Origin: Liopterus haemorrhoidalis
Lineage: Eukaryota > Arthropoda > Insecta > Coleoptera > Dytiscidae
NCBI GenBank assembly: GCA_963971575.1
Contig: OZ020622.1
Span: 28,922,301-28,986,300, forward strand
Direction of reading: 5' to 3'
Length of the DNA: 64,000 nucleotides
Within the stretch, counting starts at the first letter, position 1. Every line of letters starts with the position of its first letter. Below, piece after piece: positions 27,918 to 49,749 of the stretch. A program made the position numbers and the translations under genes. The notes below the pieces were generated by a model. The model did no database searches and was not told where the DNA came from. It saw only the letters and a program-made list of their open reading frames with translations.

Positions 27918-30805
27918 GATACTGCACTTGATGATAATGGAATGCCATTTGGCACACGTGTTGCTTATAAAAATTAAATCATTTTGACCCGCAGCACCTA
28001 TTTGTGAATCGAGGCAAATTCAAGATGGCGGCGAAACTAGCGCGCCAATTACGATAACGATAACTGATTCTTATGATACAGCAAAATAGCTAAATACATA
28101 TTTGTACAATGGATCTTTAGCTACAATTTGCCTTGTCGTACACGAATTTTCGTCACTTAGTTTACAAGATACCGTCCATAATTCATTCTCAGACGCAAAA
28201 AAGTGATTTCCGAAATGGCTAACGAATTTCGTATGGTATGGCTCGTTTTCTATTAATTTAATGCCGTAGATTATGAATCTGTTATCAAAATGGCGAAAAT
28301 TTAAAATTTTGATAGATTTTTTTCCCAAATTCGAGACATGATGATATTCTCTATCACTGCAAATCTGCGTATATTAATATTTTGTTTCAATTCTTCTTAA
28401 ATCTGTAGGGTATATCCTTGGCTACAAGAATATGTGCGAAATTTTTCTCTGCGGGGCGCCACAATTAAGGTAGCGGCCGAAATGTGTAAAATCTCAACTT
28501 CGTATTATTTTGACACTCTTTATATCGTTTTCGACCAAAGCGGACCTGTAAATTACAAAAATGAAATAAAAAATTGCATATGACTTGTTATAATTTGGAT
28601 TTTGCCCGAAATGAAATATGAAAAAAAATTACGTATCCGGCCGGAACGGCTGTAAATTATGACATTTTAGTAAGATACTCCATGCATATACGGAATGCAT
28701 CAATTTGCTTAGGTTTGTTCGCAGCACCTGGTCTCAAATGAAACCGCTTTCGAAATAACGCTCGAAAATCGAATTTTGCTATTTACAGCAAATTTGTTGA
28801 GTTGTATATCAATTTCGGGTATATTGAAGTCGTAGATTTCGAAAATTGAGTTAATTTAAATATTTGCTACACATAAGATTGTATTTTGCCCGAAAAAAAA
28901 TTAATTACATGTATTATTTACAGCAGTGAGATTCATTTACGACAGTGAAGTGACTCCTCATCCAAAAGAGTAGTATATAGCAGTTCTGACAAAATAATAT
29001 AGATTACTACACACTTAATACGATTCTAATGGTGGCCGAAAACTATTGTTTCGAAAATGGTTAAAATATTCTCTAATATTTTTACCAGTTATAAGGATAA
29101 CATTTTAATGTGTTGATAGTTCCTTCTGACTACTGACTTCCAGTCTTACCTTACAAAATAATTTATATTTGTTTACAAATCAAAGTCGAAAGCCTCACTA
29201 ATTGGGTGGGCCTATGTAAAGATAAAATTCTAGTGAGATAGAGTATGTCCATTCATGCCATCAATTGTACTGATTATTGCCGTTATTAATTTTAATTTAG
29301 GTTTATTTTAAATTTTTAAAGGGGTAAAATATTTCAAAATTATATTTTTAAAAACTACGCCTAAGAAAACGCCAGTCAAGTTCAGGGGCTAATTACGTCC
29401 GTTCCCTAATAATTAAAAATTATTTATTAGTTCTTAAATTAAAGTTTATTTAAAATGTTTATTCAATTAATTATGCAAAATAATGTTTCACACCAGGTTT
29501 CAACTTCGATTCAGACTAGTGTTGAATAAGAATTCATCGAATATCTTCATTTTGTATAGAATTAAGTAGTAGAGGAAGTCAGTATTATTGGCACATATAG
29601 AGGATATATCAACACATTCAAATGTTGTCCTGATAACTGGTAAAAATATCTGAGAATATTTTAACCATGTTCGAAAGAATAGTTTTCGGCCACCATTAGA
29701 ATCGTATTAAGTGTGTAGTAATCTATATTATTTTGTCAGAACTGCTACTTACTACTCTTTATGATGGAGAGACACTTCATTGCCATGTAATGAATCTAAT
29801 TGCTATGTGAAGAATACGTGTAATTATTTTTTTCGGGCAAAATAAAATCTTATGAGTAACAAATCTTTAAATTAACTCCATTTTCAAAATCTGCGACTTC
29901 AATATACCCGAAATTGATATACAACTCAACAAATTTGATGTAAATAGCAAAATTCGATTTTCGAGCGTTATTTCGACAGCGGCTTCATTTGAGACCAGGT
30001 GCTACAAACAAACCTAAGCAAATTGATGCATTCCGTATATGCATGGAGTATCTTACTTAAATGTCATAATTTACAGCCGTTCCGGCCGGATATATAATTT
30101 TTTATATTTCATTTCGGGCAAAATCCGAATAACAACAAGTCATATGCCATTTTTAATTTCATTTTTGTAATTAACAGGTCCGATTTGGTCGAAAACGATA
30201 TAAAGAGTGTCAAAATAATACGAAGTTGAGATTTTACACATTTCGGCCGCTACCTTAATTGTGGCGCCCCGCAGAGAAAAATTCCGCACATATTCTTGTA
30301 GCCAAGGATATGCCCTACAGATTCAGGTAGCATTGAAACAAAATATTAATATACGCAGATTTGCAGTGATAGAGAATATCATCATGTCTCGAATTTGGGA
30401 AAAAAATCTATCAAAATTTTTAATTTTCGCCATTTTGATAACAGATTCGTAATCTACGGCATTAAATTAATAGAAAACGAGCCATATCATACGAAATTCG
30501 TTAGCCATTTCGGAAATCACTTTTTTGCGTCCGAGAATGAATTATGGACGGTATCTTGTAAACTAAGTAACGGAAATTCGCATACGACGCGGCAAATTGT
30601 AGCTAAAGGTCCATTGTACAAATATGTATTTAGCTATTTTGCTGTATCATAGGAATTAGTTATCGTTATCGTAATTGGCGCGCTAGTTTCGCCGCCATCT
30701 TGAATTTGCCTCGATTCACAAATAGGTGCTGCGGGTCAAAATGATTTAATTTTTATAAGGAACACGTGTGCCAAATGGCATTCCATTATCATCAAGTGCA
30801 GTATC
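27918..30805. mobile_element. Foldback element with ~1.2-kb inverted arms
   Basis: Left arm 27918 to about 29100 and right arm about 29600 to 30805 are inverted copies, roughly 93% alike, separated by ~500 bp of AT-rich sequence. Outer ends are GATACTGCACTTGATGATAA and its complement. It splits the copia gag. An 85-codon ORF occurs once in each arm (28071-28328 minus, 30395-30652 plus) only because the arms are copies; no domain is recognisable. No transposase is present, so it is non-autonomous, of MULE/foldback type. A target duplication was not evident. Confidence 0.8.
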
Positions 30806-32621: not shown

Positions 32622-33205
32622 TTATTTATTATTATTAAAATATATTTAACAATACTACTCAAAATTTTGAATTATTTGATTTCTTAAAATTATTGCTGCA
32701 TTGTTTGCAATTTCTTCCAGACGATGATCTTGAATTTCTGGCTCTGCTTCATTGTAGTTTTCTGCGTTATTTTGGGGGTTGAAGTGCAGGTATAAATTGT
32801 GCAAAACAGCACAAGCATTTATTATCAGGCCAGCCATCCTTGGTGAATATCGTAGGGTCCTTTCTTTTAAAATTGCCCTGAATCTATTTTTTATGAGCCC
32901 GATTGTCCGTTCCACTGTGTTCCGAGCTGATGCATGTGCTTTGTTATATCGTCCTGCAGGTGTGTCAGCAGCAGCTCCTAGCACTGGAGTCATGAGCCAT
33001 GGTTCCAGCGGGTAGCCGGAATCACCTGTTATAATTTTGTTGTCAATAATGTTAAGTATTATATGTACTAGTTTCAGGTCTTAAGGATATAATGATCTGT
33101 ACCTAAAACCCATGAGCTCTTCTCTCCGTTTTCAAAGCAATTTTCCAGGTGCCGACGTACACCGCTGTGTCTCCAGATGAAAGAGTCGTGACTGCTTCCT
33201 GCGTG

Positions 33206-33302
33206 AGTAGTATAACAGAGCAGGTACGGGCTCATTACCCACGAAACCCTGAAATTTGAACAAATTCACATTTCGCAAACGTACGCGACCATCGCTGTGC
33301 GT
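33206..33302 (+). repeat. Polinton left terminal inverted repeat
   Basis: 97 bp, matching the complement of 50787-50883 with one mismatch (GAACAAA against GCACAAA). In protein-primed replication the terminal bases would be where the primer protein is linked. Confidence 0.95.
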
Positions 33303-33488
33303 TTAGAGTCGGACTCGGACAATCACCGACAATACCATAGCAGCATAATTCGGTTGGATAGTTCCAGCAAAAGCGTATGTTTTTTGTACGCGTACAAAGA
33401 GGTGAATTGCGTTGACGTTGGAACTTACCGCCGAGTTTGCGCGCTATGTATTTATCGGTTTTTAGAAGAGGAGGTCGGCTACGTCGCT

Positions 33489-33846
33489 ATGACGTACAGC
33501 CGGCATATGACGGTGAACCCTATGACGCGTAAGAAAAAAAGCAATATATGAAGTTATAAATAATTATATATAAAAAATATATTATTTCCAACAGATGAAG
33601 TAAGAGCTACTGCGGCCGACTACCGTTGTGATGTTTGTGGGGATTCCTTGGTGTTGGCAATCCCCACAGACGTATGCCCCCGTTGTGTGAACACTGAGTG
33701 AGTATTAAATTATTGTTTTAACCTTTTTTGAGGGTTTTAAATTATTTTTTATATTCTATTTTTACAGAAATGATCAGGTTCAACACATCTGTTCCCCCCC
33801 AGCATCACCGCCCCCTCCATAAAAAAAAATTTAATTATTACTAATA
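33489..33846 (+). CDS. Small zinc-ribbon protein at the Polinton left end (spliced)
   Basis: Predicted exons: 33489-33528 (first in-frame ATG), 33595-33697 and from 33768. Junctions are C|GTAAGA..TTCCAACAG| and GA|GTGAGT..TTTTACAG|. Exon 2 encodes two Cys-x2-Cys pairs 15 residues apart ('CDVCGDSLVLAIPTDVCPRC'), a zinc-ribbon pattern. The third exon is uncertain: in the spliced phase it runs to about 33846, while another frame ends in a proline-rich tail at a TAA near 33823. The frame is open upstream into the terminal repeat without an ATG. Role unknown; a DNA-binding or transcription role is only a guess. Confidence 0.5.
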
Positions 33847-34066
33847 TTAACTAATAAATCAACTATAATTCAAATATATATTGACATGATGAATGACCAA
33901 CTTTTGTTTTTAAAACAATTAACTGTGATTAATTAACTGGGAGTCGGGAATTCTAAAAATAAAACAACATGAGATTAAATTACATTATCTTTATTTAAAA
34001 CACAGAGTATAACATTGTATTTTAAAAACACATAAGTTGAAAATTTATCTTATACTTATTTTATTC

Positions 34067-37000
34067 CTACTTAATCCTATCCTTATAACCCCACGGTATC
34101 GTGTCGGTGTATAAATAATTTACAACCCTTTTGTCATCATGTGGACTAAGCGCAAGTTTTTTTTGTTTAATTGTGTATACATCGTGCCGTATAGATTTTA
34201 TAATGCTTTGTTCTCTGATAAGTGTAATGTTTTGAAATAAACAATCGTAATAATCTTCAAAGTTTATAGTTTTTAAAGCGGCTAGCGTGATACCCTTCGC
34301 CCGTTTACCCGTTTTCGCATTCAACACCTTGTAACTGTACATTTTTGATCGTAATCCTATTAAATCTGTCATAATCTGACCGGCGCACTCGTCCTTCATC
34401 AAACCTATTTTTTTGTTAACCTGAGGCATGCCGAATACGTTATCCTTGGGATAATCTGATGTGTCGAATTTACTTATATCACGTTTTATCATTTGGTAAA
34501 CATCAAAATTTAAAAAATTATATATGAGGCTATCTGCATCTGTGTAAAGTAATTTCGCATTATCACCGACCGTTGCTTTAACATAGTTGTAATGGAAATC
34601 ATAAATGAAAGTTTTGGAAAGATCGAGTATTGAGAACCCGACATAAATAGGTTTATTGAATATCACCATATTTTTATTCATTTTAATCAGTATAATGTCT
34701 TCATCAAGTATGGTGCAGCTGTGAAAATTAGGTTGTGATATGTATGATTTGGCTCCGTAACGCCCCCCTCCATTTTGTAACTAATTTCACATTTGAATGT
34801 TTACGAACGTTCTCCATCGTCTTCCCGAACACGGAATTGTTCATCAACTTAAAAAAAAAAATTTCGAATTCATTTTTGGCTACTTTTCTCAACGATGTGT
34901 TTAAATCTATATATTTCTTTAACCAGGGACTTTGTTGAAATTTGAGCACGCGGTGTATTTTCATTATTTTCATTCCGAATTGTACACATTGTTGTAAATT
35001 TTGATAGTGTATAACATATTTTTTTTATAATATAAATTCGGAATTAATTTTGCAGTCTTTGAGGTGGGGGGTGTAAAATGTTCAGGGCATAAAGGTAGAT
35101 CTTTATGCATTCTATGCAATTCTACGGGGTATTCTAGATCCACCTCGAAAATATAACCGGTATCGGCTTCACCAGATAAATTTAATAAATCGATTTTATA
35201 AAAGTCCATTTCCGCCACCCACTCAAATTGCGCAAATGGTAAATTCATCCCCATAGCCGCACCGTACAAATTGTTAACATCGAAATACATCAGGTGAGAT
35301 TCGGGTTCGTCGGGATTGTAATATTCACCCATATATTTATTATTGGCTTTCCCATATCTGTTCGAACACTGTGACACACCGCCTCGGATCCCTTTTTCCA
35401 AAAACAAAACTTTATCAACGTCGGTCAATAACTCGAGCTCAATTTCGGTACACTTTAACATCGCGTCGAAAGAAAGACCGGGTGCCGTGTAATAATGTAA
35501 AGCATCCAATCGGTACGTTTGTAAACAGGTACCCCGAAAAGCCTCAAAGACATCCGCTAATAATAACACATCCGTCTTCAAGTAGAGGTCGTTGTAGTCA
35601 CCCAATGTCCGCCCGTTGAACGTATTCCAAACTTCTCGAGCGTGCGAATAGTCTTCTTCACTTATACTTTCATTTCGGAGGGAACTGAAGAATGCGGTTT
35701 GCGGGGGTAATTGTACCTCATCGAGTTTTTCCCACGAATCGATGTACTCGTACGGGAACACACCTTTTCTCGTTAATAATTTGAACTCGGTTGCGGATGC
35801 GCAATGGGATCTGGTGATCGGCATCTCCGGATCTTTCAGATAGGATGATAATTTATCAAGACTGCTCGCCATAAAACGAAACGAATCGATAAATCTGAAT
35901 TTCACTTTTGTATTCAACACGGATTTAGTGAAGGATATGTACCGTTCTTTATTTATCGGTAGTAATGAAACAGATCCCGGTATCCCTTTAGCTATATTTG
36001 TAATGATGTGATGTGCATCGTACCCGGACAAGTTATGGAAAACTACAGGTATCGTGTGACTGGCGTGATACTTCAGGTTGCATGATTGATGTGCTGCGCC
36101 ACGGTAATTACAGGTCAGGTGGTCATGGTCCCTGACCCAGACGTCGTTCGCGTGAAAATTTTGGTGGCATATATGACAAATTGTAGCGTTTATGAACCGG
36201 TTTTGTTCCTCGCGTGTCAGTTTCATCGGCAAAGCGTTGCGCATTATTTCATCAACTTGCGTGGCGATGTTACTAAGTTGATCCGTGAACCAATTTATGC
36301 AATCTTTACCGCGATTAAATCGGTAACCGGATAACGAACCATCATAAGAACACTTCATGTAATATCCCACGCTCGACGGAATATGTTTATGCGTGTTAAT
36401 TGTATTTTTCCCACTTTTGTCATCAATTTTTTCGAGAATGGCCTCGATGTCCGCATACAAAACGAAAGTACCTTTCTCTTTATTGCTGAAATTTTTAAAT
36501 TTTAAAATTTTATGCGTCTCGTCGGGCAGTTCAATTCGCGTGCACGGATTCGTGACACGACAATTTAATAAATGTTTTTGCAGCGAAGTCATGGTTATGA
36601 AGTGATTCAAACATCTATCGCACAGATATGCTTTATGGCGTGATTTGGAAATCTGTGCGGAGAGTAATCTTGATAAATTCTTAATCCACATGAAGTGGTA
36701 ATTTTGCGGTGCTCTAATATTCTCGACGATATCCCCCTCTTCCATTTTTTCTTCTTCATCTTCCACATTAGAGTACATCATTAAAAGATGTATGGTTTTC
36801 ACGTCAGTTTTTTTACTCAATTTAACGGGGGCGACTTCATGTTTATTCTTACCAACTTTTAAAAGCGTGTACACGTTTATCGATAATTTATTCATCTCTT
36901 CAAATTTCGGTATGTCCTTAATTCGAATCGGGAACTGAATTCCGTCATAATTTAATGATGTACTAAAATGTGGGTATGACGTCACACGATCTGAATTCTT

Positions 37001-37831
37001 ATCTGCCGGATACAGTGCGGACATAACAGCCCACAAGAAACAATATTCATCACGGTTCTTCATATTTATTACGGCTTGTTTCCTCTTCACATCACCCGGT
37101 AAATCAATATATCCACGTATGGTGATGGGCGAATAATTGTTTATGTTCACGTTTAAATGCATTATCTCATGCAACGACCATCCGGAATCACGTTCCTGGA
37201 ACTCCTCCAGATCACGCAATATATTTTCTTTCACGTTTTCATTATACCACACGTTGATATCGGTGGCGTTATCGATAATTTTATTGCTCGTGTTAAATGT
37301 TTTTATTTCTATCCTACCGGTTGATGGTAACACAAATTCCCCACTAAATATCACGTTCACTTTTAAAATCGATTTCTTCAGGCTGGCTTTAATTTTATTC
37401 GTGAAAATCCTTTTGGATTTTTCGAGAAATGTTCTCGGATCTTTAAACCCTCCTTTGTTTATTATGGCACCGGTTTTTATTCGATTATTGAACACGGATT
37501 TGATGTCTTCCCAAACCAAATTTTGCTTCCTCCTCCTCCGTGTCGATAGTCCCGCTCCGGTTTTTGTCGAACTCGTTTTGATATTCTTCAGCTTCTCGCG
37601 GAAAAATTTTAAAATAGTTAAATTGCCTTGCAATTTGGCTAAATTCTCATCTTTACACCTGAACACCGTGATTTGGTTCTCGATACATTTCTGAACTATT
37701 ATTATAATTTTGTTAATGTGTTTCCGCCATCTTTCGGCTTCATCAACAGTTCTAATGAGCGATAAAGCTTTTCGAATGTTAATAATAGCCCGATCGCTAA
37801 TACTGCAAACTCTACTGTTAGAACTCATCAT
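34067..37831 (-). pseudogene. polB: Protein-primed DNA polymerase B (two frameshifts)
   Basis: Replicates the element using a terminal-protein primer. The frame opens at 38023, but the first 64 codons overlap a repeated intergenic motif, so ATG 37829-37831 is the likely start (total near 1250 residues, normal). From the open-frame start: a Polinton N-terminal module ('NMKNRDEYCFLWAVMSALYP', ~320), C2H2-like finger (~468-488), exonuclease motif I 'VLYADIEAIL' (~521), HNH-like 'RDHDHLTCNYRGAAH' (~631), exonuclease II 'FHNLSGYDAHH' (~662), motif III (~814-826), polymerase A 'YFDVNNLYGAAM' (~913). Polymerase B '[14 protein letters not shown]' and C 'LYTDADSLI' follow in other frames. Breaks: a 1-nt shift in an A8 run (35019-35026) and one at a G6 run (about 34771). 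Both are homopolymers, so assembly error is possible. Confidence 0.95.
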
Positions 37832-38141
37832 GAATTTATCAGTTCTCGAACAATACTTTACCAAAACCCCCCCTGAGCAGGAGCTTTTATACCAAAAACC
37901 TGTCGATAAGGAAAACTTGTTTGAACTTGTTCGTGCGACCTCGGACGTGTTAGAAACTTTTCGCGCGACCTTGGATGCACGCGTCAGACATCGCAACTGA
38001 TAATGGGGATTCGACCTTATCAAAACATGTTTATATAATTAATTAACTGGTTGGAATTCTAAAAATAAAACAACATGAAATGAAATTACATTATCTTTAT
38101 TTAAAACACACAGAGTATTACATTTTATAACTATAATAATA

Positions 38142-39629
38142 TTACAAGTTATAATAAGATGTAAGTTTGGTTAATAAATTTTTAAGTTGTTTAAATATTC
38201 CCACATGAGGACACTGTATATCAAATATAGACAAGTCAAATGGTTCCGCCTTTACAAGTTTGTTAGTAAATTCACTGTACGCGTAATAGATTTTGTTTTT
38301 GAAAAAATATATTAAGCCATCCGTATATCGGAAGCCTCCATTAACACCCGGTGGTATTTCGGGGAACATTTTATCAACGTATGCGTTATCTTTAACATAC
38401 ATATTACATTCATCGATTTCCGAGCAATACACATCATTATAGAAAAAGTACGTGCGCCCCGTATATGAATTAAACGCACTCGTAATGTTTTTCATCGAAT
38501 TAAAGTTTACTACACGGTTTTCAAGTTAAAAAGATGGGAATTTAACGTTGTATATTATATTACCGGTAACGAGTATAATATTACCGTTAGGTCTCTGATA
38601 GACAGCTGATATTTTATCAAAATTTAATAAAAATGGTAGCCAGTCGGTAATGGGTGTTGGTTTATGATTTAAATTATTATCAGCTAGATTTTTCTGCCAC
38701 ACCCAATCCGCATGAAATATGTACAGATGTTCATTTATTATTAAGAATGTATTTAATTCATTATTTAAATCACAAATGTTGGGTGGGGTTGCTCCTGCTG
38801 CTGCTGCTCCTGGGGGATGTTCTTTGGCTGTTGTTGTTGTTGTTGTTGTCGTTGTTGTTTCTAGAGGAGGGCCGTATAAGGATTGAATAGCATGTTTGTC
38901 ATCCTCTTCTAAATCCACAGCCGTGAGGTTGTTAAACATTTTTGAAAAATAATAGGGGTACATAATGGAGAAAAAGTTGTTTGAATGATGGATTCCGAGT
39001 GAGTGCCCAATTTCATGTACCATCATTTCAAAGAAATTTGTAAAATTATCCAATGATGTGTCCAAATTATAGTCCCAATTTTCATCTGAATCAATATGCA
39101 TTTCTACAGGGGTTTGATTTGCGTTGGGTAGGTTGGCGTGTGCCAATGTACATGTTTTACAAGTGAAATGACGTTTCTTTCCGAAACTGATTAATATATC
39201 AGGTCGAACATTTTTTCTCATAAATGTAATATCGGCATGCTTCGACCAAATATCGAATGCTCTCTGCACCAGGTTGATAGCTCGAGTATTAGAGGTTCGA
39301 TATATTTCCCAAAATACGATTTTATTCATCCATTTATTATGACCGATAACATAGTTTAAGGTATCGGAATTACCACATCTCCGCTTTCTCATTAAATTCA
39401 ATGTTTCTAAATTGGACGTATCATCAATGGACAAGTTGTGTTGTTTTTGAAAATATTTTAACGCATTTCTGTATTTACCATTTGTTTCATCGATCGCTTC
39501 GAAATTTAACTCGTCGCTAAAGTTAAAATAGCCGTATGTGTGTAGGTGGGTTAGAATTTCTTCAAATTCTGACGCTTGTATAAGGTTATAACACGGAAGA
39601 AGAAAAATAAACAGCAGTAACCACAACAT
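38142..39629 (-). pseudogene. Secreted matrix metalloprotease with hemopexin domain (one stop)
   Basis: Zinc endopeptidase of the MMP (M10A) family, expected to cleave extracellular matrix such as basement membrane. Signal peptide residues 1-20; peptidoglycan-binding-like prodomain (~22-82); cysteine switch RCGNSD at 84-89, overlapping a basic RKRR; catalytic domain with HEIGHSLGIHH (His205, Glu206, His209, His215) and Met-turn Met223; Thr-rich linker (257-267) and Pro/Ala stretch; hemopexin-like domain from Cys286. An in-frame TAA at 38526-38528 interrupts the propeller, whose remainder (to a final Cys-containing strand) continues in the same frame to 38142. The catalytic part is intact, and MMPs without full hemopexin can be active. 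It sits between PolB and capsid on the same strand. Confidence 0.9.
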
Positions 39630-39691
39630 CCTGAAGAAGACTAACTAATTTTCCATAAGTGTTTATTATTATAACAAATTTACGATACCGG

Positions 39692-40858
39692 TTAAGGGTG
39701 AATAATCAGTAATTTTATCATGCAGTAAGCCGTTGTTTGAGCGGGGAAATTTTCGGTGGCTTCAAATTCTAATCGGATATCAACAGGACCGGATTTGATT
39801 TTTTCGTTCTGTTTAGAACAATCGATTACTATTAAACAAACATCCTTGAAATTAGCCCAATTTAACAGGGGGCTGGTCTGTTGATTATAGTAGGACTTTT
39901 GAAACTGTGTGTACATTTCATACAATACGGCATACTGATTTTTTCCAAAATTTATATTTAGATTATCGTACGGAAAGCATTCTGAATTAAGGTGGAGTTT
40001 AACATTTGTCAGATTGCAATGGTTAAATTTACCAGAATCCGTATTGGTTTTATTTTTAACATCGCTCTGAAATCCGAGTATTACATATCTGGGTGTCTCT
40101 AACCGGCTCGATGATTTTATGGCCCAAATTTGTTTTGAAGCGGTTGGTAATACGGGGTACTCGTAAAGGTCCCAACCTCTATATGGCGCCTGTAACACCC
40201 CGCCATTGTTAATAATATTCAACAAATTTAATTTTTCCTCATCGCTAGGATAAATATGTTTAATTCGCCATTGTATCTTAAATATATTTATTTTAAATTC
40301 TACATCGTTTATATACACATTTTTATCGTTTCAAGAACGGACGAGTATGAGTTCTTGTTTAGCATTTAAAATGATTCGATTGTAGTCTTCGGCAAAACCG
40401 AGCAGTAATTTTAGCGGTATTGATACGGTGAAATCTCCAGTGGCGTGCACGAGTTTTGCATTATTCCAACCGGCGGTTTCATAGTTAGATACCTCGTTTG
40501 ATGTAATCGAAATATAACCTTTCATTGTACTTGTAATACCTACATTTTTAACCTTATCGATTTCAATACCGAACAATTCATAGCGAATTTCATCAAACAG
40601 AAACGCGAACCCATTTGTCGCTAATTTCACATCGACCGGTGCTGTTAAAGCGGTTTCATCAGGTTTAGTAAATCTACTCTCTATAACAATGAAACTATCG
40701 TACGGTGTTGTGCAGATATCTTGATGGTGAATCGGTATTCTTATCTCGTCACTGTTTTCATATCTCGTAGATGAATATGGATCATACGTATGCCACTCTT
40801 CACGTCTGACGGCATTGTTAAAGCTTACTTTACCGCTCACGTTTAGTATTTCACTCAT
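39692..40858 (-). pseudogene. MCP: Double jelly-roll major capsid protein (one stop)
   Basis: Forms the hexon-like capsomers of the predicted icosahedral virion. Start ATG 40856-40858 ('MSEILNVSGKVSF'). About 388 codons, a usual size for Polinton capsids. The N-terminal jelly roll has strand-rich segments ('YDSFIVIESRF', 'GFAFLFDEIRYELFGIEID') and 'LLGFAEDYNRIILNAKQELI'; the second has 'PYRGWDLYEYPVLP', 'PRYVILGFQSD', 'HLNSECFPYDNLNINF'. An in-frame TGA at 40331-40333 splits the halves; reading continues in the same frame without indel. The ATG overlaps the stop of a small upstream ORF (ATGA). Identification rests on my recognition of conserved capsid motifs. Confidence 0.9.
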
Positions 40859-40977
40859 TGTTGTTTCTTTAATTTGTAACCTTGAGATAAGAGAAACTGA
40901 ATATTTTCAGGTGTTAACGCAGGTCTTGTTGGAGGGAGATTGAATTTATATTTGTCAGACGTGTTATTTATAGGCAT
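40855..40977 (-). CDS. Small ORF overlapping the capsid start
   Basis: 40 codons, ATG at 40975-40977, stop TGA overlapping the capsid ATG by 4 nt (ATGA). The peptide begins 'MPINNTSDKYKFNLPPTRPA' and ends in a basic Lys/Gln tail. Pro- and Asn-rich with no known domain. It lies 41 nt after the penton gene. Its tight fit suggests a real gene or a leader that couples translation to the capsid; it may be a small virion component. Confidence 0.55.
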   Translation of the reverse strand: MPINNTSDKYKFNLPPTRPALTPENIQFLLSQGYKLKKQQ

Positions 40978-41018
40978 AGGTTTTTTTTTTGTTAGGGGAG
41001 TATTAAAATCAATACCCA

Positions 41019-41804
41019 TTATAACTTTCTTAGATGTAATCGAACTGTGATTATTTCGTTTTCGAAATTTATCAGATATCCGTTCTGGTCACAAATTCGG
41101 AGAGTTAAGTTGTTCACAGTTCGGACGTTTACAGGTAAATAAATAACGTTTCGTGGTGTCTCTATTATTTTATACCCCGCCGGAACAGTGGGGTAGAATT
41201 CATGGATAGTGTGCACTAACTCGTTGTTTCTATATACACCCGTTACAATATTACACTCGATTTGTATCGAGTTAACCTTTACTATGTCCACAGGAAAATC
41301 TGATTCGTGAACTTTATTAGGTTCTAATATTCTTTTTGAAAATCCCAACATATCCCCGATACAATCATCCTTGGTAAAATCAATCTCGCAGTTACTGAGC
41401 AGCTCGCATTTAAATGTGGTGTTGTTAGCGTATAGAGTTAAGAAGTTTTCTTTTTTAATCACGGATGTGGATGGGGTTTGGTTATGTTCAAATATATGTT
41501 TGGCATTCGGATCACCGAGCTCGAGCCGTAAATAATTATTAATGCCTTCTATCTCATAAGCGCCCACCGGTAAAGTTATTACTTTATCACCATCATAATA
41601 GAATTTATTATTACCCACATCGATATTAGGTATTGAATTATATGTATAGAAATTTATTAATCCGATGACATAATCACCATCAGTCAGATCTAGTGGTGGG
41701 AAAAAATCACAACTAAGTTCATGTGATTTACCGGTCAGTGTAAATGTGTTTGTGCTATCGCCCGACATGTTCGTTAATAATGATGTAAAATCTAAGATGT
41801 TCAT
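41019..41804 (-). CDS. mCP: Penton-like minor capsid protein
   Basis: 261 residues, intact, in the position and size of the Polinton minor capsid (single jelly-roll penton) protein. Begins 'MNILDFTSLLTNMSGDSTNT', with the conserved 'DGDYVIGLINFYTYNSIPNI' and a 'ITLPVGAYEIEGINNYL' segment, and ends in a strand-rich 'ENEIITVRLHLRKL'. Expected to occupy the fivefold vertices. The ATG follows the protease stop codon directly (TAAATG), so the two genes abut without spacer. Confidence 0.85.
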   Translation of the reverse strand: MNILDFTSLLTNMSGDSTNTFTLTGKSHELSCDFFPPLDLTDGDYVIGLINFYTYNSIPNIDVGNNKFYYDGDKVITLPVGAYEIEGINNYLRLELGDPNAKHIFEHNQTPSTSVIKKENFLTLYANNTTFKCELLSNCEIDFTKDDCIGDMLGFSKRILEPNKVHESDFPVDIVKVNSIQIECNIVTGVYRNNELVHTIHEFYPTVPAGYKIIETPRNVIYLPVNVRTVNNLTLRICDQNGYLINFENEIITVRLHLRKL

Positions 41805-42152
41805 TTATTTATGTAGAAATTTAAGACATAAATGACCACATTTTATCGAATTATAATCTTGATCAGCGTTGTAATTATAGGTTATTTTAGCCCGCTCACC
41901 AAAATAATTAATCAGTTCAAGCGGTGGTGGTAATTTTCCGAAACTATCGTAATACTCAACATAATTACCGAATTTCTTGTAAGCCACCCAGTGAGTGCCG
42001 GGGCCATCCGCATTGTCTAGATTTATAATGGCGCATTCGTCAGTTTTAGGTTTTTTCGGTAAAGCATTACGCATAAACACACCTCTAAAATTCGGTATAT
42101 TTACAGCATAAATGTGCAGATCGTGATTTGTTAATGCTCGATTGGGTAAAAT
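41805..42152 (-). CDS. PRO: Adenovirus-type cysteine protease (adenain-like)
   Basis: C5-type protease for virion maturation. Catalytic His in 'GPGTHWVAYKK', Asp in 'EYYDSFG', Cys in 'CGHLCLKFL' near the C-terminus. The first in-frame ATG is at 42072-42074, inside the conserved 'FRGVFMRNALPKK'. Conserved-looking sequence ('LPNRALTNHDLHIY..NIPNF') continues upstream in frame to about 42150 without an ATG; a TAA closes the frame at 42177-42179, 4 nt below the PLA2 stop. Either the start codon is lost, translation starts at a non-AUG codon (CTG 42117-42119), or it is coupled to PLA2. The start given is the approximate edge of the conserved part. Confidence 0.85.
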   Translation of the reverse strand: MLPNRALTNHDLHIYAVNIPNFRGVFMRNALPKKPKTDECAIINLDNADGPGTHWVAYKKFGNYVEYYDSFGKLPPPLELINYFGERAKITYNYNADQDYNSIKCGHLCLKFLHK

Positions 42153-42180
42153 TAATGTTTTATTATTTTTATTTATTTAT

Positions 42181-42759
42181 TTATTTTTTATTTTTCCGCT
42201 GTAATTTACCACCGCGTTTATGAGGATACGGACCCAGATACAGACCGCCACCCAACGCCTTTTTCGTTCCGTAGGATGCGGCTCCGCTGGCCACACCTGC
42301 CAATAACGCTTTCCCTATCAGCGGTAACAGCGCCGGTAGAAATGGTAGAACGCCACCTGTTTTTAAAGTTCTCGATCGTTTTTTCGTTTTCTTCGTTTTC
42401 GGTTTTCTTTTCTTATGCCCCATACCGAGTTTTGTTTTCGCTTTCATAGCACCCACCACCGCCAACGCCGCTGCTTTTTCACCTATGGAAGCGTCTTTTG
42501 ATATAACTCTTAGCCAGGCCTTCTGCTGCAACACTTTATCCGCTTCGTGTCTTTCTTTTAATTCCTTATTCTGAGAATAAGCTATTTCGTGATCCTTACA
42601 CGCGGAGTCTAAAGGGTTTATCCCGGGATCACCTCGTAATAATCGTTTCTGAAGTTTAGTACCAGGTCCGCAATGTTGATATCCGGGTAAATGCAATTCA
42701 AACGGTAGAGAATTTATCGCGGAATTAAGTAAACCGGAGCCGCTATGATGCGTAATCAT
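42181..42759 (-). CDS. Parvovirus-like phospholipase A2 with basic core-like region
   Basis: ATG 42757-42759 chosen ('MITHHSGSG'); an upstream in-frame ATG at 42802-42804 would add 15 hydrophobic residues overlapping the ATPase promoter. Numbering from the upstream ATG: PLA2 domain ~40-80 with calcium loop 'CGPGT' (45-49), 'PLDSACKDHEIAYS' with catalytic His72. The residue after His is Glu where Asp is usual. In parvoviruses such a domain helps virions leave endosomes. Residues ~129-146 are strongly basic (KKRKPKTKKTKKRSR), then a hydrophobic/Gly-Ala stretch (~150-187), recalling adenovirus core or membrane-lytic proteins, and a basic tail. Intact. Known in adintovirus-type elements as far as I recall. 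Confidence 0.85.
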   Translation of the reverse strand: MITHHSGSGLLNSAINSLPFELHLPGYQHCGPGTKLQKRLLRGDPGINPLDSACKDHEIAYSQNKELKERHEADKVLQQKAWLRVISKDASIGEKAAALAVVGAMKAKTKLGMGHKKRKPKTKKTKKRSRTLKTGGVLPFLPALLPLIGKALLAGVASGAASYGTKKALGGGLYLGPYPHKRGGKLQRKNKK

Positions 42760-42782
42760 CAGGTGATGAAAAGTGAATGATA

Positions 42783-42790
42783 TATAAATA
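42783..42790 (+). promoter_or_regulatory. TATA box of the ATPase gene
   Basis: TATAAATA 39 nt before the ATPase ATG, so the leader would be very short. It lies within the divergent 69-bp space between the PLA2 and ATPase genes. Confidence 0.55.
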
Positions 42791-42828
42791 GGAAATCCAC
42801 ACATATATACCCCTCATTATTTGTTAAG

Positions 42829-43530
42829 ATGCACTTCACGAAGCACAAAATCCGTCTGCATGTAAAAAATTTTGATATGATGGATAACAGCTGTGGTGAT
42901 GGTGGTGGTAACGTCTGTAGAAGACATGGAGATTTATTACCAAATACCATCAGATGCATAATTTGTGGTCCGTCAAATTGCGGTAAAACTAATGTGATGT
43001 TGAGTTTATTATCAGATAAAAACGGATTACGATTCGAAAATATTTATATTTATTCTAAGTCACTTAATCAACCGAAATATAAATTTCTAGAAGAGTGCGT
43101 TTTTCGTGTAAAAGGCATGGGTTACTTTACGTTTACTGATAACGCTGATATCGTGAAATCTCAAGATTCAAGGTCAAACTCGGTGTTTCTGTTTGACGAT
43201 ATAGCTTGTGACAAACAGATGTGTATTCAGGAATTTTTTAGTCGGGGGCGTCATTATTTTATAGATTGTTTTTATTTATGTCAAACCTACGCTCGTATAC
43301 CTAAGCATTTAATACGGGACAATGTGAATTTGATTGTCATTTTCAAGCAGGACGATATGAATTTACATCATATATATAAAGATCACGTGAATACCGATAT
43401 GACGTTCATAAAATTTAAAGAATTTTGTTCTGATTGTTGGCGGGATAAATATGGATTCGTCGTGATCGATAAGGACAGCGATATACTAAAAGGGCGGTAT
43501 CGAAAAGGTTTTCATAATATTCTAACATAA
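42829..43530 (+). CDS. ATP: FtsK/HerA-type genome-packaging ATPase
   Basis: 233 residues, intact. Walker A GPSNCGKT (47-54) and Walker B VFLFDDI (119-125), followed by 'FFSRGRHYFIDCFYLCQTYA' with a polar residue at sensor position, as in A32/FtsK-like Polinton and virophage ATPases that pump DNA into capsids. The N-terminus begins 'MHFTKHKIRLHVKNF' and includes a short Gly-rich insertion before the core. First gene of the plus-strand block. Confidence 0.93.
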   Translation: MHFTKHKIRLHVKNFDMMDNSCGDGGGNVCRRHGDLLPNTIRCIICGPSNCGKTNVMLSLLSDKNGLRFENIYIYSKSLNQPKYKFLEECVFRVKGMGYFTFTDNADIVKSQDSRSNSVFLFDDIACDKQMCIQEFFSRGRHYFIDCFYLCQTYARIPKHLIRDNVNLIVIFKQDDMNLHHIYKDHVNTDMTFIKFKEFCSDCWRDKYGFVVIDKDSDILKGRYRKGFHNILT

Positions 43531-43539
43531 GAAAAACAG

Positions 43540-43690
43540 GTCAAACTGACAGGTTGAACAGGTCTAACAGGTCGAACAGACAGGTCTAACAGGTCGAACA
43601 GACAGGTTGAACAGGTCAAACAGACAGGTCGAACGGGTTGAACAGGTTGAATAGGTCGAACAGACAGGTAATATAGGTCGAGAACAGGTC
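43540..43690 (+). repeat. Minisatellite ACAGGTCGAACAG
   Basis: About 150 bp built from degenerate 10-19-nt units ACAGGTCGAACAG / ACAGGTTGAACAG between ATPase and the next gene, followed by (TA)n (43703-43716). Purely non-coding; could be a spacer, an origin or a regulatory array. Confidence 0.8.
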
Positions 43691-43776
43691 TACCTGACTG
43701 CTATATATATATATATACGGGTGTTGTTATATCGCATTCATTAAACAAACCTGTATAAGGTGACACGTAGAAACGG

Positions 43777-44820
43777 ATGGGTGTGAAAACAACAGATGAT
43801 GATACTCTCAGACGAATAATAGATGTGAGTAATGCTATTCGTCTGAAATATAACAGTCTGAAGCGGGGGCGAACTGAAACCGAGAAAAATCTTGAGGAAA
43901 CCTTTAGACCCATAACTCACTCCTTAAAGAAATTAAAGTTTGAAAACATTGTTAAAACCACACCGCGATCGTCAGTGGTGACACCTCTTATAAAACCTAA
44001 AAAATTATACCCGGGTGTGGATGGGGATGATGAGGGGGAAGGTGAAGCGGTAGGATCACGAACCTTCAAAACACCGACGAGAACATCATTTCTGAACACC
44101 GAATTAATTGCCGAAGCTCGAGGTAAAGATGAGGAGGATGTTTTTAGACCTGTACGTGAATCGCTTAGAACCGAGGAGACGCGTGCTGAACTTAGTAATT
44201 TACTAGGTGACAGAGCTGCGGAATATTTTCACTTCTTCATAACGGCGGACGATAAAGAAAAAGATACGGTGTATGGAATTCATAGGGATTCTGACGGTAA
44301 TTGGGTGGTCGGTAATACAATAATTACAATTAAACATAATGATATATCCGTCAACGATAAATGGTACGAGGGCACGAGGGGATTATATGAATTATTATTT
44401 AAGAGAAGTCCTTTACATTATACTCCAGAAGATGTGGAATCCTACATTGACATTGTTGTAAAAACAAACGCGCATAGAAGGGGGTATCGTGCGGATGGTC
44501 AGTTAAACGGAAACGGTGGTAGAAAGTAAAGAGAAATTATTAAACCGGCGATGACTGCTTTGAAAACAAGACAGCGATCTGGTACAGGATTAGGTCTTAC
44601 TCAAAACCCTCAGTTAACTGTAAACGATAATGATTATAATTGCATATATTGGTATTGGAATAATATAAACGAAATCGTAGACAGATTACAGTTGTTAATC
44701 GCATCTAAAAATGCCGGTCATTCAAATCATAATAACGAAATTTTAGCGATAGAAGAGGAGTTGTATGAAGAAGGTATAATCAAGATCAAAAAGAAAGAAA
44801 AGGAGGAGAAGGAGGAGTAA
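43777..44820 (+). pseudogene. DUF8207-like conserved Polinton protein (one stop)
   Basis: Two open stretches, 43777-44526 and 44530-44820, are in the same frame and separated by one TAA (44527-44529). The N-terminal half is charged and probably helical; then 'DTVYGIHRDSDGNWVVGNTI', 'YEGTRGLYELLFKRSPLHYT' and 'YIDIVVKTNAHRRGY', the conserved core I recall from DUF8207-type proteins of insect Polintons. The second stretch has 'INEIVDRLQLLIASKNAGHS' and an acidic/Lys-rich helical tail. Function unknown; its place between ATPase and integrase is usual. The family name is from memory. Confidence 0.75.
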
Positions 44821-44833
44821 TTATATGATGATA

Positions 44834-44843
44834 CTTATATAAG
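44834..44843 (+). promoter_or_regulatory. TATA motif of the integrase gene
   Basis: CTTATATAAG, 50 nt before the integrase ATG. The same core CTTATATAA occurs before the membrane-protein gene (46796-46805). Confidence 0.45.
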
Positions 44844-44892
44844 CGAAATTCCAAATTTTTAAAAACAGAACGTTTTAATTCGTCTGTGTATA

Positions 44893-45816
44893 ATGAGTAA
44901 ATTAAAAATCGTAAACGAGTTACACAGATCGGCTCGTAGAAATTACCCGCGAAGACGTGTGATAACTAAAGGTATTGATGACTTATGGCAGAGTGATCTC
45001 GTTGAAATGATTCCTCACGCTCGATATAATAAGGGTTACAAATATTTATTAACAATTATAGATGTTTTTTCCAAATATGCTTGGGTGGTACCGGTAAAAT
45101 CAAAATCTGCCGAAAATATATCGCTTGCTCTTTCAAAAGTTTTCGAGCAAGGTCGTGTCCCGAAAAATTTACAAACAGATAACGGTAAAGAATTTTATAA
45201 TTCAAAATTTAAAGAATTAATGAAACGGTATAACGTCAATCATTATTCTTCGTTCAGTAATCTTAAGGCCTCCGTTTGTGAAAGGTTCAACAGAACACTT
45301 AAGAATTCTATGTGGCGAAGATTTAGCCACCAAGGTTCACATATTTGGTTGAAGATTTTATCGAAATTGGTCGAACAATACAATAATAAACGACACAGAA
45401 CTATCGGTATGAAACCGGTCGAAGTTACGCATAAAAATGAGAAACTTTTATTACAAACGGTGTACAGTAATATTAAAATTAGCGGTAAAGCTAAACTTAA
45501 AGTTGGAGATTATGTACGAATAAGTAAAATAAAGCACTTATTTGAAAAAGGTTATGAACCCAACTGGTCCACTGAAATATTTAAAATTGATAAAATTCAA
45601 CACACAAATCCGGTTACTTATAAACTACAAGATTTTCAAAATAACCCTATTTCAGGCGGGTTTTACGAGTACGAGTTACAAAAGACCGCATACCCCGATA
45701 TTTATCTAGTTGAAAAGATATTGCGCACTAAGGGGTCTAAGGTGTACGTTAAATGGTTGGGTTTCGATAAATCTTTCAATTCTTGGGTTGATAAATCAGA
45801 TGTAATTCAAAATTAA
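44893..45816 (+). CDS. INT: Retroviral-type integrase with chromodomain
   Basis: Inserts the element into DNA, making the 6-bp duplication seen. 307 residues, intact. The rve catalytic core has Asp35 in 'LWQSDLVEM', Asp96 in 'LQTDNGKEFYN' and Glu130 in 'ASVCERFNRTLKN' (DD34E spacing). A middle basic SH3-like region is around 195-250 ('KLKVGDYVRISKIK'). The C-terminal chromodomain, from ~264, has 'YLVEKILRTKGSKVYVKWLG' and 'FNSWV', predicted to direct integration to particular chromatin marks. Confidence 0.95.
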   Translation: MSKLKIVNELHRSARRNYPRRRVITKGIDDLWQSDLVEMIPHARYNKGYKYLLTIIDVFSKYAWVVPVKSKSAENISLALSKVFEQGRVPKNLQTDNGKEFYNSKFKELMKRYNVNHYSSFSNLKASVCERFNRTLKNSMWRRFSHQGSHIWLKILSKLVEQYNNKRHRTIGMKPVEVTHKNEKLLLQTVYSNIKISGKAKLKVGDYVRISKIKHLFEKGYEPNWSTEIFKIDKIQHTNPVTYKLQDFQNNPISGGFYEYELQKTAYPDIYLVEKILRTKGSKVYVKWLGFDKSFNSWVDKSDVIQN

Positions 45817-45829
45817 AAGACGACTACGA

Positions 45830-45955
45830 CATGTTTGAACTTGTTAGAACCTGTTCGTGCGACCTTGGACGTGTCTGCACGCGCTGGACATCACAACTGA
45901 TAAGGGGATTACCCAGTTTTGACCTTGAGTCCCACAGTGATAACGATTTCCAGTT
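45830..45955 (+). repeat. Dispersed intergenic motif, copy 2
   Basis: Contains GAACTTGTTAGAACCTGTTC, GCGACCTTGGACGTG, GCACGCGCTGGAC, ACAACTGATAAGGGGATT and TTTTGACCTTGAGTC in this order. Related blocks occur at 37905-38015 (beside the PolB start) and 50570-50760 (beside the right terminus), all in the same orientation. Each includes CTGATAA/CGATAAG, a GATA-type site. Likely regulatory or structural. Confidence 0.7.
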
Positions 45956-46058
45956 GTACTCCCCACCATGATGGAAAAAAATTAAATATAAAAAGAGTTT
46001 GCATAGAGATGTGGAACATTAACCGTTAACACCTCGCCCAACACATATCTTCGTCAAA

Positions 46059-46691
46059 ATGCGTTCACAACCACCATCTGAAAATTATGTTTCGCTCGGT
46101 AATGATATTTTTGCGCGAGTAGAATTGGTGGATCTTTACCATTTACATATTAATTTAACATTTAAAGTTGATGGTGATATAGTAAAATGGTACATACCCA
46201 GCAAGGTTTTCACCGGTCGTAACACGGATCAAGTTCGTTTCAAACTGAACTTAACATCGAAACATTCATGTTTGTTGAACCTCCAAAAAGAATACCCCTG
46301 TTATAACGATTATGATATAAATTTTGTTCTACATCCGGGGGACAATTCTCTCCGTTCTTGGGGTAATGAAGGTGGTGATTTGTACATATTGAATCCGGAA
46401 AGTAAAGCGACACTTTTACTGGATGAGTACACCGATGATAAACCAACACGCTTAATTCTCACCACCTATAGACAACTAAAACGACAACGAAAATATCATC
46501 ATTATTATGACTCCGGTGATAGGATCGTGTGTGATGGTACAGCTTCCTCTCGCTCCGAAGTTGATGGTGATATAGCACACGCTCATTTTGCGACGTATGG
46601 AGAATCATCGCAACAATTCTGCGAAGTGCGGTTTCAGAAAAACGAAGACACGGCCCGTGGAACCATATTCCATTTTATTGTTATCGACTAA
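46059..46691 (+). CDS. Unknown Polinton protein, 210 aa
   Basis: Intact frame starting 'MRSQPPSENYVSLGNDIFAR'. Predominantly strand-forming with alternating polar and hydrophobic residues ('LYHLHINLTFKVDGDIVKWY', 'KPTRLILTTYRQL', 'TIFHFIVID'), few Cys (4-5), no signal peptide and no membrane segment. A beta-sandwich virion or receptor-binding protein is possible, but this is only inference. TATA-like ATATAAAAAG lies 75 nt upstream. I do not recognise a family. Confidence 0.75.
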   Translation: MRSQPPSENYVSLGNDIFARVELVDLYHLHINLTFKVDGDIVKWYIPSKVFTGRNTDQVRFKLNLTSKHSCLLNLQKEYPCYNDYDINFVLHPGDNSLRSWGNEGGDLYILNPESKATLLLDEYTDDKPTRLILTTYRQLKRQRKYHHYYDSGDRIVCDGTASSRSEVDGDIAHAHFATYGESSQQFCEVRFQKNEDTARGTIFHFIVID

Positions 46692-46731
46692 CGTAAACAG
46701 CAAATTAATGTAAATATTTTTAATTAATATT

Positions 46732-46796
46732 AATAAATAATGTTATGTAAAATGTTGTGTTTAATTTCTACTTTCCCTTCACCCCCCTCCTTACCC
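46732..46796. repeat. Inverted repeat arm, left (partner 49750-49814)
   Basis: 65 bp including AATAAATAATGTTATGTAAA and TTTCCCTTCACCCCCC, recurring in inverted orientation at 49750-49814 with about five differences. In both places it lies between the 3' end of one gene and the upstream region of the next. It carries AATAAA and runs into a TATA motif on the left side. Confidence 0.8.
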
Positions 46797-46805
46797 TTAT
46801 ATAAC
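46796..46805 (+). promoter_or_regulatory. TATA motif of the membrane-protein gene
   Basis: CTTATATAAC, 53 nt before the ATG at 46858 and at the inner edge of the inverted repeat arm. Confidence 0.45.
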
Positions 46806-46857
46806 TCATCATGAGTTGTGAAATTTTCAATTCTGTGTCGCACTCCAAACATACACT

Positions 46858-47313
46858 ATGTATAGCGCGATCGGTGTCGTGAACTTTATTTTATTAACAA
46901 ATGTTTTAAATTACACCACTTTGTATATTACAAAACCGCAGGGGACTGATCAGTGCGTGATTACAATAGATTATGATAAAACAATGACCGAATCTTATCC
47001 GCAGAGATGGTCTTTAATGGAAAATTACTATCAGTTTTGTCGAATAAATATCGATGAAAATTCGGATGATGCATTTATCCGGTATAAAATTCGTTATATA
47101 TTACATGATAACAGTCACTGGATGCCTACGAATGAGTGGATATCAACGCTTCGCGATGTAAAAACCTATGAGTCATTACAAAAATCCGTGATAATATATA
47201 TTTATTCTAAGATAACTTTTATGATATTTCTTGTGTTATACATAATAATAATAATAACATTATATTACTTTAAATACCCGCGCAAAGGACGAACTCTCGC
47301 AATTTCAAAATGA
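46858..47313 (+). CDS. Small type I membrane protein
   Basis: 151 residues, intact. Hydrophobic N-terminus (1-22) that may be a signal peptide, a ~90-residue ectodomain with two Cys and two N-glycosylation-type sites (NYT at 18-20; another candidate is weak), a long membrane segment (~119-137, 'IFLVLYIIIIITLYYF') and a short basic cytoplasmic tail. Its stop TGA overlaps the next ATG (ATGA). Located just before the fibre-like gene. Could be a host-membrane or entry-related protein; no family recognised. Confidence 0.7.
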   Translation: MYSAIGVVNFILLTNVLNYTTLYITKPQGTDQCVITIDYDKTMTESYPQRWSLMENYYQFCRINIDENSDDAFIRYKIRYILHDNSHWMPTNEWISTLRDVKTYESLQKSVIIYIYSKITFMIFLVLYIIIIITLYYFKYPRKGRTLAISK

Positions 47314-48065
47314 GCATCAACAAGTTCGGACATTATTCGGATGAGCTATATTCTTCAGCAAATGTTCGCGGACCTGTAGTAAATACAGGATTCAATCGTA
47401 CCAGAGATGGGAATTTAAATTTTAACCTCAAACGACTGGTGAACGTCGCCGATCCGCAGGATGAAAATGATGCGTGCATAAAAAAGTATGCGGACTCGGT
47501 GACGCACGAGTTAAAAAATGAATTTGATTTAATCGGTGGCAAAATGGAAACTAACATTGAAAATTTAACCCGTAAAGTAGATAATATAGTAAAAATTATA
47601 CCCGACATTGCTGCCGATGAATGTATAAAAACGCGTGAGAAAACACAGGCATATTTACTACGAGAGTTGTGTAAAATAATTGATGAGAAAACGGGGGAAA
47701 ACAAAGAAAATTTGGAAAAAACAATGAATCAACTATTTATTAAAATGAATGATAATTTAAAGAAAATACATAATTATGTGTTAGTTAATTTACAACTAAA
47801 ATTAAATGTGGATGTTTATGAAGTTTTAAATAGTCCGAATGATGAATATTATACATCGCCATTTAGCGGGAAAATAATACGAATTTCCTACAGCGGTAGG
47901 AACTTAAAGTTCATCGCAAATATAAATAATGAAACACCTTTATTAAAAAATAATAATAATGAAATTGTGGAAAATGATAAAATACGATTTTATTGCGGTG
48001 ACTCTGTTGGTCAATATCCTAAAAAATTATATGTAGAAATAATAATATTATTAAATAATTCATAA
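47310..48065 (+). CDS. Phage-fibre-like coiled-coil protein
   Basis: 251 residues, intact. Residues 40-60 hold the pattern L-V-N-V-A-D-P-x4-D-A-x-x-K-K-Y, closely resembling the shaft-start motif of bacteriophage tail-fibre proteins. It follows a 'RTRDGNLNFNLKR' segment and precedes a long coiled coil (~62-160, heptads such as 'NIENLTRKVDNIVKI'). A C-terminal ~80-residue strand-rich domain ('SGKIIRISYSGRNLKFIANI', 'IRFYCGDSVGQYPKKLYVEI') looks like a trimeric head. The architecture suggests an elongated trimeric attachment fibre, comparable in layout to adenovirus fibre. The assignment is inference; coiled-coil proteins of unknown role are usual in Polintons. Confidence 0.7.
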   Translation: MSINKFGHYSDELYSSANVRGPVVNTGFNRTRDGNLNFNLKRLVNVADPQDENDACIKKYADSVTHELKNEFDLIGGKMETNIENLTRKVDNIVKIIPDIAADECIKTREKTQAYLLRELCKIIDEKTGENKENLEKTMNQLFIKMNDNLKKIHNYVLVNLQLKLNVDVYEVLNSPNDEYYTSPFSGKIIRISYSGRNLKFIANINNETPLLKNNNNEIVENDKIRFYCGDSVGQYPKKLYVEIIILLNNS

Positions 48066-48199
48066 ATAAAACTTGATTCGACTTATGGTAAACTAACAGG
48101 TGTGAGGGTGGGGTTAGATAAGAAATACAATTGGATAAATAAAAGGAGATTGTTTAACCGGAGCTCATTCAAAAACTACTACTACTACTTCTGTGAAAG

Positions 48200-48523
48200 A
48201 TGGTTGATCACGGTCAGATTATTAAATACTTTGACGACGATCGTTGGGTGGATTTCACCATCACCTGCGGTGTAGATGTAAAAAAATACTACGCCGATGG
48301 TTGCTGGATGTTCGCGTCGGAAGAATTCCACCGAGGTCAACATCTTGACCCTGTGGAATATGAAGGATTTAAAAAGGAAGGATATCCGGTTAGAAATTGT
48401 GACGAACACTCCGACGCTTCGAATGATGTCTGGTATAAAAAGATCATTGTTGAACAGCCGAACCATGATTATACTTCATGTCTGTGGGATGTGGATATGA
48501 AGAAAGAAAAACACCAATTTTAA
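48200..48523 (+). CDS. Unknown 107-aa Polinton protein
   Basis: Intact, starts 'MVDHGQIIKYFDDDRWVDFT'. Rich in aromatic and acidic residues, with four Cys (24, 35, 66, 94 approx) and a Lys-rich C-terminus. No signal peptide or membrane segment. Last gene of the plus block; converges on the 66-aa gene across an AATAAA-rich spacer (48524-48686). Not recognised. Confidence 0.6.
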   Translation: MVDHGQIIKYFDDDRWVDFTITCGVDVKKYYADGCWMFASEEFHRGQHLDPVEYEGFKKEGYPVRNCDEHSDASNDVWYKKIIVEQPNHDYTSCLWDVDMKKEKHQF

Positions 48524-48686
48524 TCATATATATGTTTTATTAATGTATTATTACAATGTACAAACAATAAATAATATTCTAAAAAATAAATGTGTTTTAA
48601 TTATTTCCATATATCCCCCGACCATTCTATACATTCATTATATTATTCAATTACATAACTAACTTATTACAATAAAACATCTGAAA

Positions 48687-49023: not shown

Positions 49024-49176
49024 CTTTCTCACCGAACAAGAACTTTAAATGAATTGTATGCAAAATTCTTTTGTTAACCAATATATACAGAAGTGGAAGT
49101 GAGTTTATCAAATTTTAAAAATAATTTTTATATCACCCCCCCGCCATTATTTATTATTATTATTACACATCACATT

Positions 49177-49656: not shown

Positions 49657-49749
49657 GATAATATGTGTTCACTTGAGGGGGGATTAGTTGATAAATATCA
49701 AATATTACAGTTGAACTATTATTATATTCTCTGTTACGGACTATTATGA

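Follow-up and report, generated by a model that had tools for sequence, protein, structure and literature searches.

The 64,000-nucleotide stretch of Liopterus haemorrhoidalis DNA analysed here (contig OZ020622.1, positions 28,922,301 to 28,986,300; hereafter the window, whose numbering we use throughout unless a contig is named) contains a Polinton of the integrating type, 17.7 kb long (33206-50883), with a gene for a matrix metalloprotease (MMP) among its own genes. We found that at least three Polinton families of the genome, designated A, B and C, carry this gene as resident cargo, and that the window holds a decayed copy, a broken member of family A. The gene comprises the following features:

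38526-39629, minus strand: MMP main frame, 367 residues, with a signal-like N-terminus, prodomain, catalytic domain, Thr-rich hinge and the start of the hemopexin domain
39363-39380, minus strand: cysteine switch RCGNSD, read in the translation
38985-39017, minus strand: zinc site HEIGHSLGIHH, read in the translation
38142-38495, minus strand: 117-residue frame carrying the remainder of the hemopexin domain; a stop divides it from the main frame, with which it is continuous in intact sisters

A preliminary description of this DNA had reported an MMP with a cysteine switch, zinc site, Met-turn and hemopexin-like domain, and all of these are present. The Met-turn (SIMYPYY) was read directly in the translation, like the RCGNSD switch and the HExxHxxGxxH site, Pfam recognises both Matrixin (E 2.3e-29) and Hemopexin (E 2.4e-4), and the switch residues R84, C85, G86 and D89 are invariant in a seven-row alignment. 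The hydrophobic N-terminus looks like a putative signal peptide. That description had, however, taken the copy as whole. Compared with the intact sister L022, to which 361 of 367 aligned residues are identical, the window copy lacks 12 residues of the catalytic domain around the structural loop FDGPGG and four in the low-complexity hinge, and its hemopexin frame is broken. The FDG loop, absent here, is a feature of the family as a whole: it was found in 14 of the 17 family-A sisters fetched, the other three (L034-L036) not being read by pattern. PolB and the capsid gene are likewise split in this copy.

The gene lies well inside the element, as had been proposed, enclosed by the terminal repeats and the target duplication among the following features:

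33206-33302, plus strand: left terminal inverted repeat, 97 nt, with TGCGTG directly outside at 33200-33205
34067-38023, minus strand: PolB, two main frames (split in this copy), assigned by homology
39692-40858, minus strand: double-jelly-roll major capsid protein (MCP), two frames here (PF21738, E 1.7e-75 and 9e-33)
41019-41804, minus strand: putative penton or minor capsid protein, so named from its position only; no family match
42181-42804, minus strand: phospholipase A2 (PLA2)-like protein (PF08398, E 1.5e-12)
42829-43530, plus strand: packaging ATPase, A32 type (PF04665, E 9.2e-9)
44893-45816, plus strand: integrase with rve core (PF00665, E 1.4e-15) and a weak chromodomain (E 0.00098, below the Pfam cut-off)
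50787-50883, minus strand: right terminal inverted repeat, 97 nt, with TGCGTG directly outside at 50884-50889

The two repeats are 99% complementary to each other, and together with the 6-bp duplication TGCGTG at both ends they delimit the element as a Polinton. A retroviral-type integrase, a double-jelly-roll capsid protein and a packaging ATPase, which define such elements, were all found; the capsid gene, split here, is a single frame of 399 residues in L022. The Pfam scan did not match a polymerase domain in the PolB frames of the window or of the sister copies. Nevertheless, the window pieces are 45-49% identical to the PolB of a family-B element (L038). For this protein, 7980 candidates were scored and 7850 proved homologous; the best 120 of these 7850 include insect proteins with PF03175 and the PolB of a Megastigmus wasp adintovirus. 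We therefore assign the window frames to PolB by homology, and protein priming is predicted. No adenovirus-type maturation protease was matched among the window frames scanned, and comparison of the frame at 43777-44529 with solved structures brought up no convincing match.

Some smaller observations concern the element itself. A 78-bp direct repeat (86%) lies on either side of PolB (33930-34007 and 38036-38113); it has AATAAA when read on the gene strand and may serve as a common 3' end signal. Beside the left end, a DDE_Tnp_4 transposase fragment (32655-32993) suggests that the Polinton may have inserted into an older DNA transposon. In L038, an endonuclease VII-like stretch within PolB (positions 1188-4235 of that piece) scores above the Pfam cut-off (28.1 vs 23.6 bits).

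Copies, families and selection

Searching the genome with the window MMP frame gave 93 matches of all lengths, a number that excludes chance as the source of the frame. These merged into 67 loci, at least one of which is a host MMP exon; a Matrixin profile search added only host loci and, compared by eye, no further Polinton place. We fetched pieces around 22 MMP places, 17 of family A (L020-L036), four of family B and one of family C. Other Polinton genes were present in all 22, the barest (L036) holding only a capsid fragment. In family A the order is capsid gene, MMP, PolB, while in families B and C the MMP adjoins the integrase. The MMP is thus not a nested retrocopy, since it stands among Polinton genes in three families and in two gene orders, and is selected in family A. 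This bears out the earlier proposal that it is a genuine gene of this Polinton.

The association with capsid genes was assessed within a limit of 12 kb, after scoring 150 of 254 capsid, 45 of 551 PolB and 129 of 3360 integrase candidates. The MMP was near the capsid gene in 14/14 loci with 88-100% identity to the window capsid, in 1/15 at 66-72% (C1:56910752, which is the broken family-A copy L021), in 0/81 at 48-56%, in 14/17 at 45-46% and in 4/23 at 42-44%, giving 33 of all 150 scored loci. One copy of the 72% family has, in the gap between capsid gene and PolB, a 124-residue frame of unassigned kind and an apparent PolB end, and no MMP was found there. The MMP is therefore family-specific, missing in the nearest capsid relatives of family A and present in the more distant families B and C. 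Loss would explain this patchy distribution, and exchange between families would do so equally well.

These counts bear on the possibility that this single Polinton received a retrocopy or fragment of a host MMP, which it carries as a passenger. In its favour, the gene is intronless, the window copy is broken, and close relatives of family A lack it. Nonetheless, in 14 high-identity family-A loci and one broken one the MMP is at most 12 kb from the capsid gene, two further families carry it in another gene order, and it is selected in family A and not sister to this host's own MMPs. The preliminary description had named, as the outcome that would count against its proposal, other copies without the gene together with a retrocopy signature around it here; this was not found, and all 14 close capsid loci have the MMP. 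A nested retrocopy is contradicted by the distribution over several families, the capsid association and the selection in family A, and we regard the passenger explanation as scarcely credible.

Intact MMP frames of 510-555 residues were present at 17 of the 30 Polinton places examined, counting the window copy: 510-511 residues at five of the 17 fetched family-A places, 522-555 residues at all 11 family-B places and 523 residues at the single family-C place. Over about 10 kb, three family-A copies, each on a different contig, agree to 99.8-99.9%, which indicates that the family was recently active. For the selection analysis we used nine family-A places, four of them with an intact MMP, and omitted L025, whose MMP is identical to that of L024. 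The ratio of replacement to silent differences per site (pN/pS) of the MMP was 0.11-0.17 in 6/6 pairs, with Fisher p values from 9e-7 to 2e-3 for five of them. The family-A MMP is under purifying selection, a point that the preliminary description had left to be checked. For comparison, the MCP gave 0-0.26 over 15 family-A pairs, and the ranges were wider for PLA2 (28 pairs, up to 0.89) and the ATPase (six pairs, up to 0.95); one PLA2 pair had six replacement and no silent changes.

The intact frames might instead reflect host rather than element selection, if the host had domesticated Polinton MMPs. Consistent with this, no scored capsid gene lies within 12 kb of the 13 merged MMP loci on contig C13 (12.05-12.41 Mb), and locust genomes have relatives annotated as genes. 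On the other hand, the elements that hold the intact frames are near-identical, with other element genes intact next to those frames, and the C13 pieces are mostly partial. We consider domestication highly improbable.

The C13 loci lie within 360 kb on mixed strands and could be an element graveyard or a PIWI-interacting RNA (piRNA) cluster; MMP loci also cluster on C11 (27.85-27.98 Mb). Overall, a scored capsid gene is missing within 12 kb at 34 of the 67 merged MMP loci, of which at least seven, judged by eye, have a scored integrase no more than 4 kb away. PolB was matched in 13 of the fetched family-A pieces. It shares the strand of the MMP in nine of them (L020, L022-L027, L030, L031), as in the window, whereas the two genes are on opposite strands in the other four (L028, L032, L033, L035), reflecting either a flip within family A or a neighbouring element. 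With at least 551 PolB and at least 254 capsid first-look candidates, the genome is rich in Polintons. Elsewhere in the window, inverted repeats with 708-, 277- and 182-nt arms (91-96%) are nested at 27918-30805 into a large palindrome that is probably a foldback element, and a long terminal repeat retrotransposon at 53282-58146 has 196-nt repeats 99% alike and a gag-pol frame of 1379 residues.

Origin of the Polinton MMP

Four places in the genome gave intron-split matches that represent the host's own MMPs, and their catalytic exons were read. We built a tree of the catalytic domain from 61 rows, hand-chosen from the listed matches and loci, over 199 columns. One clade of 21 rows (support 99/93) unites four Polinton rows of this genome with 14 unnamed public proteins and three Schistocerca proteins, away from the host MMPs. 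The host locus C1a groups with two beetle MMPs and one unnamed protein (98/87), and the other three host loci, of which C8 covers less than half of the columns, fall elsewhere. These neighbours and the PolB matches alike suggest an insect, perhaps a beetle, as the host. The lizard protein P0065, grouped with the matches beforehand, lies outside the 21-row clade.

Topology tests bear on the idea, put forward in the preliminary description, that an MMP of this insect had been captured. Joining family A with C1a was rejected by the approximately unbiased test (p-AU 3.6e-90), as was joining all 21 clade rows with the four host MMPs (p-AU 4e-7). Given these rejections and the clade separation, capture from this host's MMPs is rejected. 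A separate clade of the four own-genome Polinton rows was also rejected (p-AU 0.00115); the split within the Polinton MMP lineage is therefore older than the copies in this genome. The tested groups were named after the tree had been seen, some rows are long-branched, and the deep tree lacks resolution and does not place the donor lineage. The ultimate source was likely some animal MMP, captured long before the present copies of this genome arose.

Relatives from IMG/VR (eight loci) were taken as tailed phages and kept out of the tree. Nine large frames on six of the eight contigs were scanned: L010-L013 matched terminase or portal proteins, L009 matched a glycosyltransferase and nothing else, and L014 had no match.

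Possible function and comparison with known systems

We examined a structure model of the public relative P0052 (510 residues; mean predicted local confidence, pLDDT, 86; predicted template modelling score, pTM, 0.71). The model shows a prodomain and a catalytic domain together with four four-stranded blades, and its best matches among solved structures are human proMMPs. A four-bladed hemopexin domain is thus predicted for this relative, and its counterpart is broken in the window copy; L004, P0003 and P0004 each have a single PF00045 stretch. Fold matches to viral proteins include HzNV-2 (E 1.2e-31), the Helicoverpa armigera granulovirus MMP (E 3.0e-25), Trichoplusia ni ascovirus 2c (E 6.1e-21), Amsacta moorei entomopoxvirus (E 7.8e-20) and Wiseana iridescent virus (E 2.8e-18).

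Several steps may be proposed for the action of the enzyme. It would be made as a secreted zymogen and opened at the cysteine switch, after which the catalytic domain is predicted to cleave in a zinc-dependent manner and the four-bladed hemopexin domain to pick the substrate. By analogy, the extracellular matrix or the basal lamina is its likely substrate. Polinton particles presumably exist, and loosening of the matrix could let them reach new tissues, perhaps the germ line. In insects, tissues are sheathed in basal lamina, which is described as a barrier to virus spread in part of PMC11865517.

Considering all the above results, we favour, with a probability of roughly 0.6, the interpretation that the window holds a decayed copy of an MMP cargo of at least three Polinton families, selected in family A, whose product is a predicted secreted zymogen likely to loosen matrix for particle spread. 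A number of observations weigh against it. The window copy cannot encode a complete enzyme, and among the 17 fetched family-A sisters 12 are likewise incomplete. The sixth family-A pair, with only three differences, was not significant (Fisher p 0.11), and the family-A pairs share branches and hence are not independent. Near-identical family-B copies gave dN/dS values from 0 to 1.2, some undefined, which are little informative, and between families dS is about 2 or more, making the ratios of 0.13-0.27 rough and unreliable. The whole-length template modelling scores (by query) of the twelve best insect-virus rows are 0.28-0.41 with root-mean-square deviations of 8.6-23, the matches being by domain. 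Finally, an MMP is lacking within 12 kb at 117 of the 150 capsid loci scored; Polintons therefore do well without one.

Alternatively, the selected MMP may act on a target other than the basal lamina, for instance other Polinton proteins, the activation of host or element proteases, particle release, or the defence by melanisation and haemocytes. The anatomy and the selection fit any extracellular protease role, and a granulovirus MMP with a distinct melanisation pattern is described in part of PMC4192325. The pro-catalytic-hemopexin architecture is nevertheless that of matrix-directed MMPs, and the signal-like N-terminus speaks against a capsid-internal role; neither point is decisive. We think this alternative unlikely, while giving it real weight.

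If the favoured interpretation of a selected, matrix-loosening cargo is extended, insect Polintons may own an ancient MMP lineage that was kept, lost and possibly traded between families. Its secreted, barrier-breaching enzyme might carry particles through the basal lamina into the germ line, the missing step to a new heritable insertion, and the locust 'collagenases' might be part of this viral lineage. This extension is a tentative one.

A selected, secreted-looking protease makes most sense if the element acts outside the cell, and the MMP thus provides indirect evidence of an extracellular stage, in which Polinton particles may pass from cell to cell. It also offers an enzyme that can be assayed, and adds Polintons to the groups of insect DNA viruses carrying an MMP. 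Moreover, some proteins named as host collagenases in public annotation may be Polinton MMPs.

Viral MMPs are known and so are Polintons, and we did not find the two joined in print, which does not show that no such report exists. Open-access literature pairing Polinton, Maverick or adintovirus with MMP terms yielded no report of MMP cargo, in a search that had a 2021 adintovirus paper outside its scope and one query swamped. In one paper so matched, the metalloproteinase belongs to a poxvirus, and 'hemopexin' occurred in none of the papers listed by a further search. The portions of PMC11071296 and PMC11071308 consulted have no word beginning with 'metallo'.

The element resembles insect adintoviruses and Polintons (Mavericks) in its capsid protein, ATPase, integrase, terminal repeats and 6-bp duplication. 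Adintoviruses are defined, in the available part of PMC11071296, by a PolB with an OTU-like N-terminus, a hexon recognisable by BLASTP and an integrase with a chromodomain. The traits seen here are a PolB similar to a named adintovirus PolB, that of family B being 55% identical to the Megastigmus wasp protein, and an integrase with a weak chromodomain match.

With animal MMPs, which we take to be MEROPS family M10A, the Polinton MMP shares the prodomain, the RCGxxD switch, HExxHxxGxxH, the Met-turn and a hemopexin domain with conserved cysteines. It differs in being intronless, whereas the host's own four loci are intron-split. Named cellular MMPs among the best 120 of 178 matches are mostly 22-30% identical, and up to 34% over part of the length. 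The Schistocerca proteins named 'collagenase 3-like', 'MMP-14-like' and 'MMP-27-like' fall inside the same supported clade as the Polinton MMPs, and it is our guess that they too lie in Polintons.

Among viruses, the MMPs of nudiviruses, ascoviruses, entomopoxviruses and iridoviruses are alike by fold match and belong to other virus groups. A betabaculovirus is not known to integrate as part of its cycle. According to part of PMC4192325, an MMP was present in every betabaculovirus sequenced by 2014 and is thought to take part in spread. The betabaculovirus (granulovirus) enzyme, from an insect double-stranded DNA virus, is a Matrixin like the Polinton one and similar to it in fold, the only similarity seen; its gene resides in a large virus, whereas the gene described here resides in a 17.7-kb integrating element.
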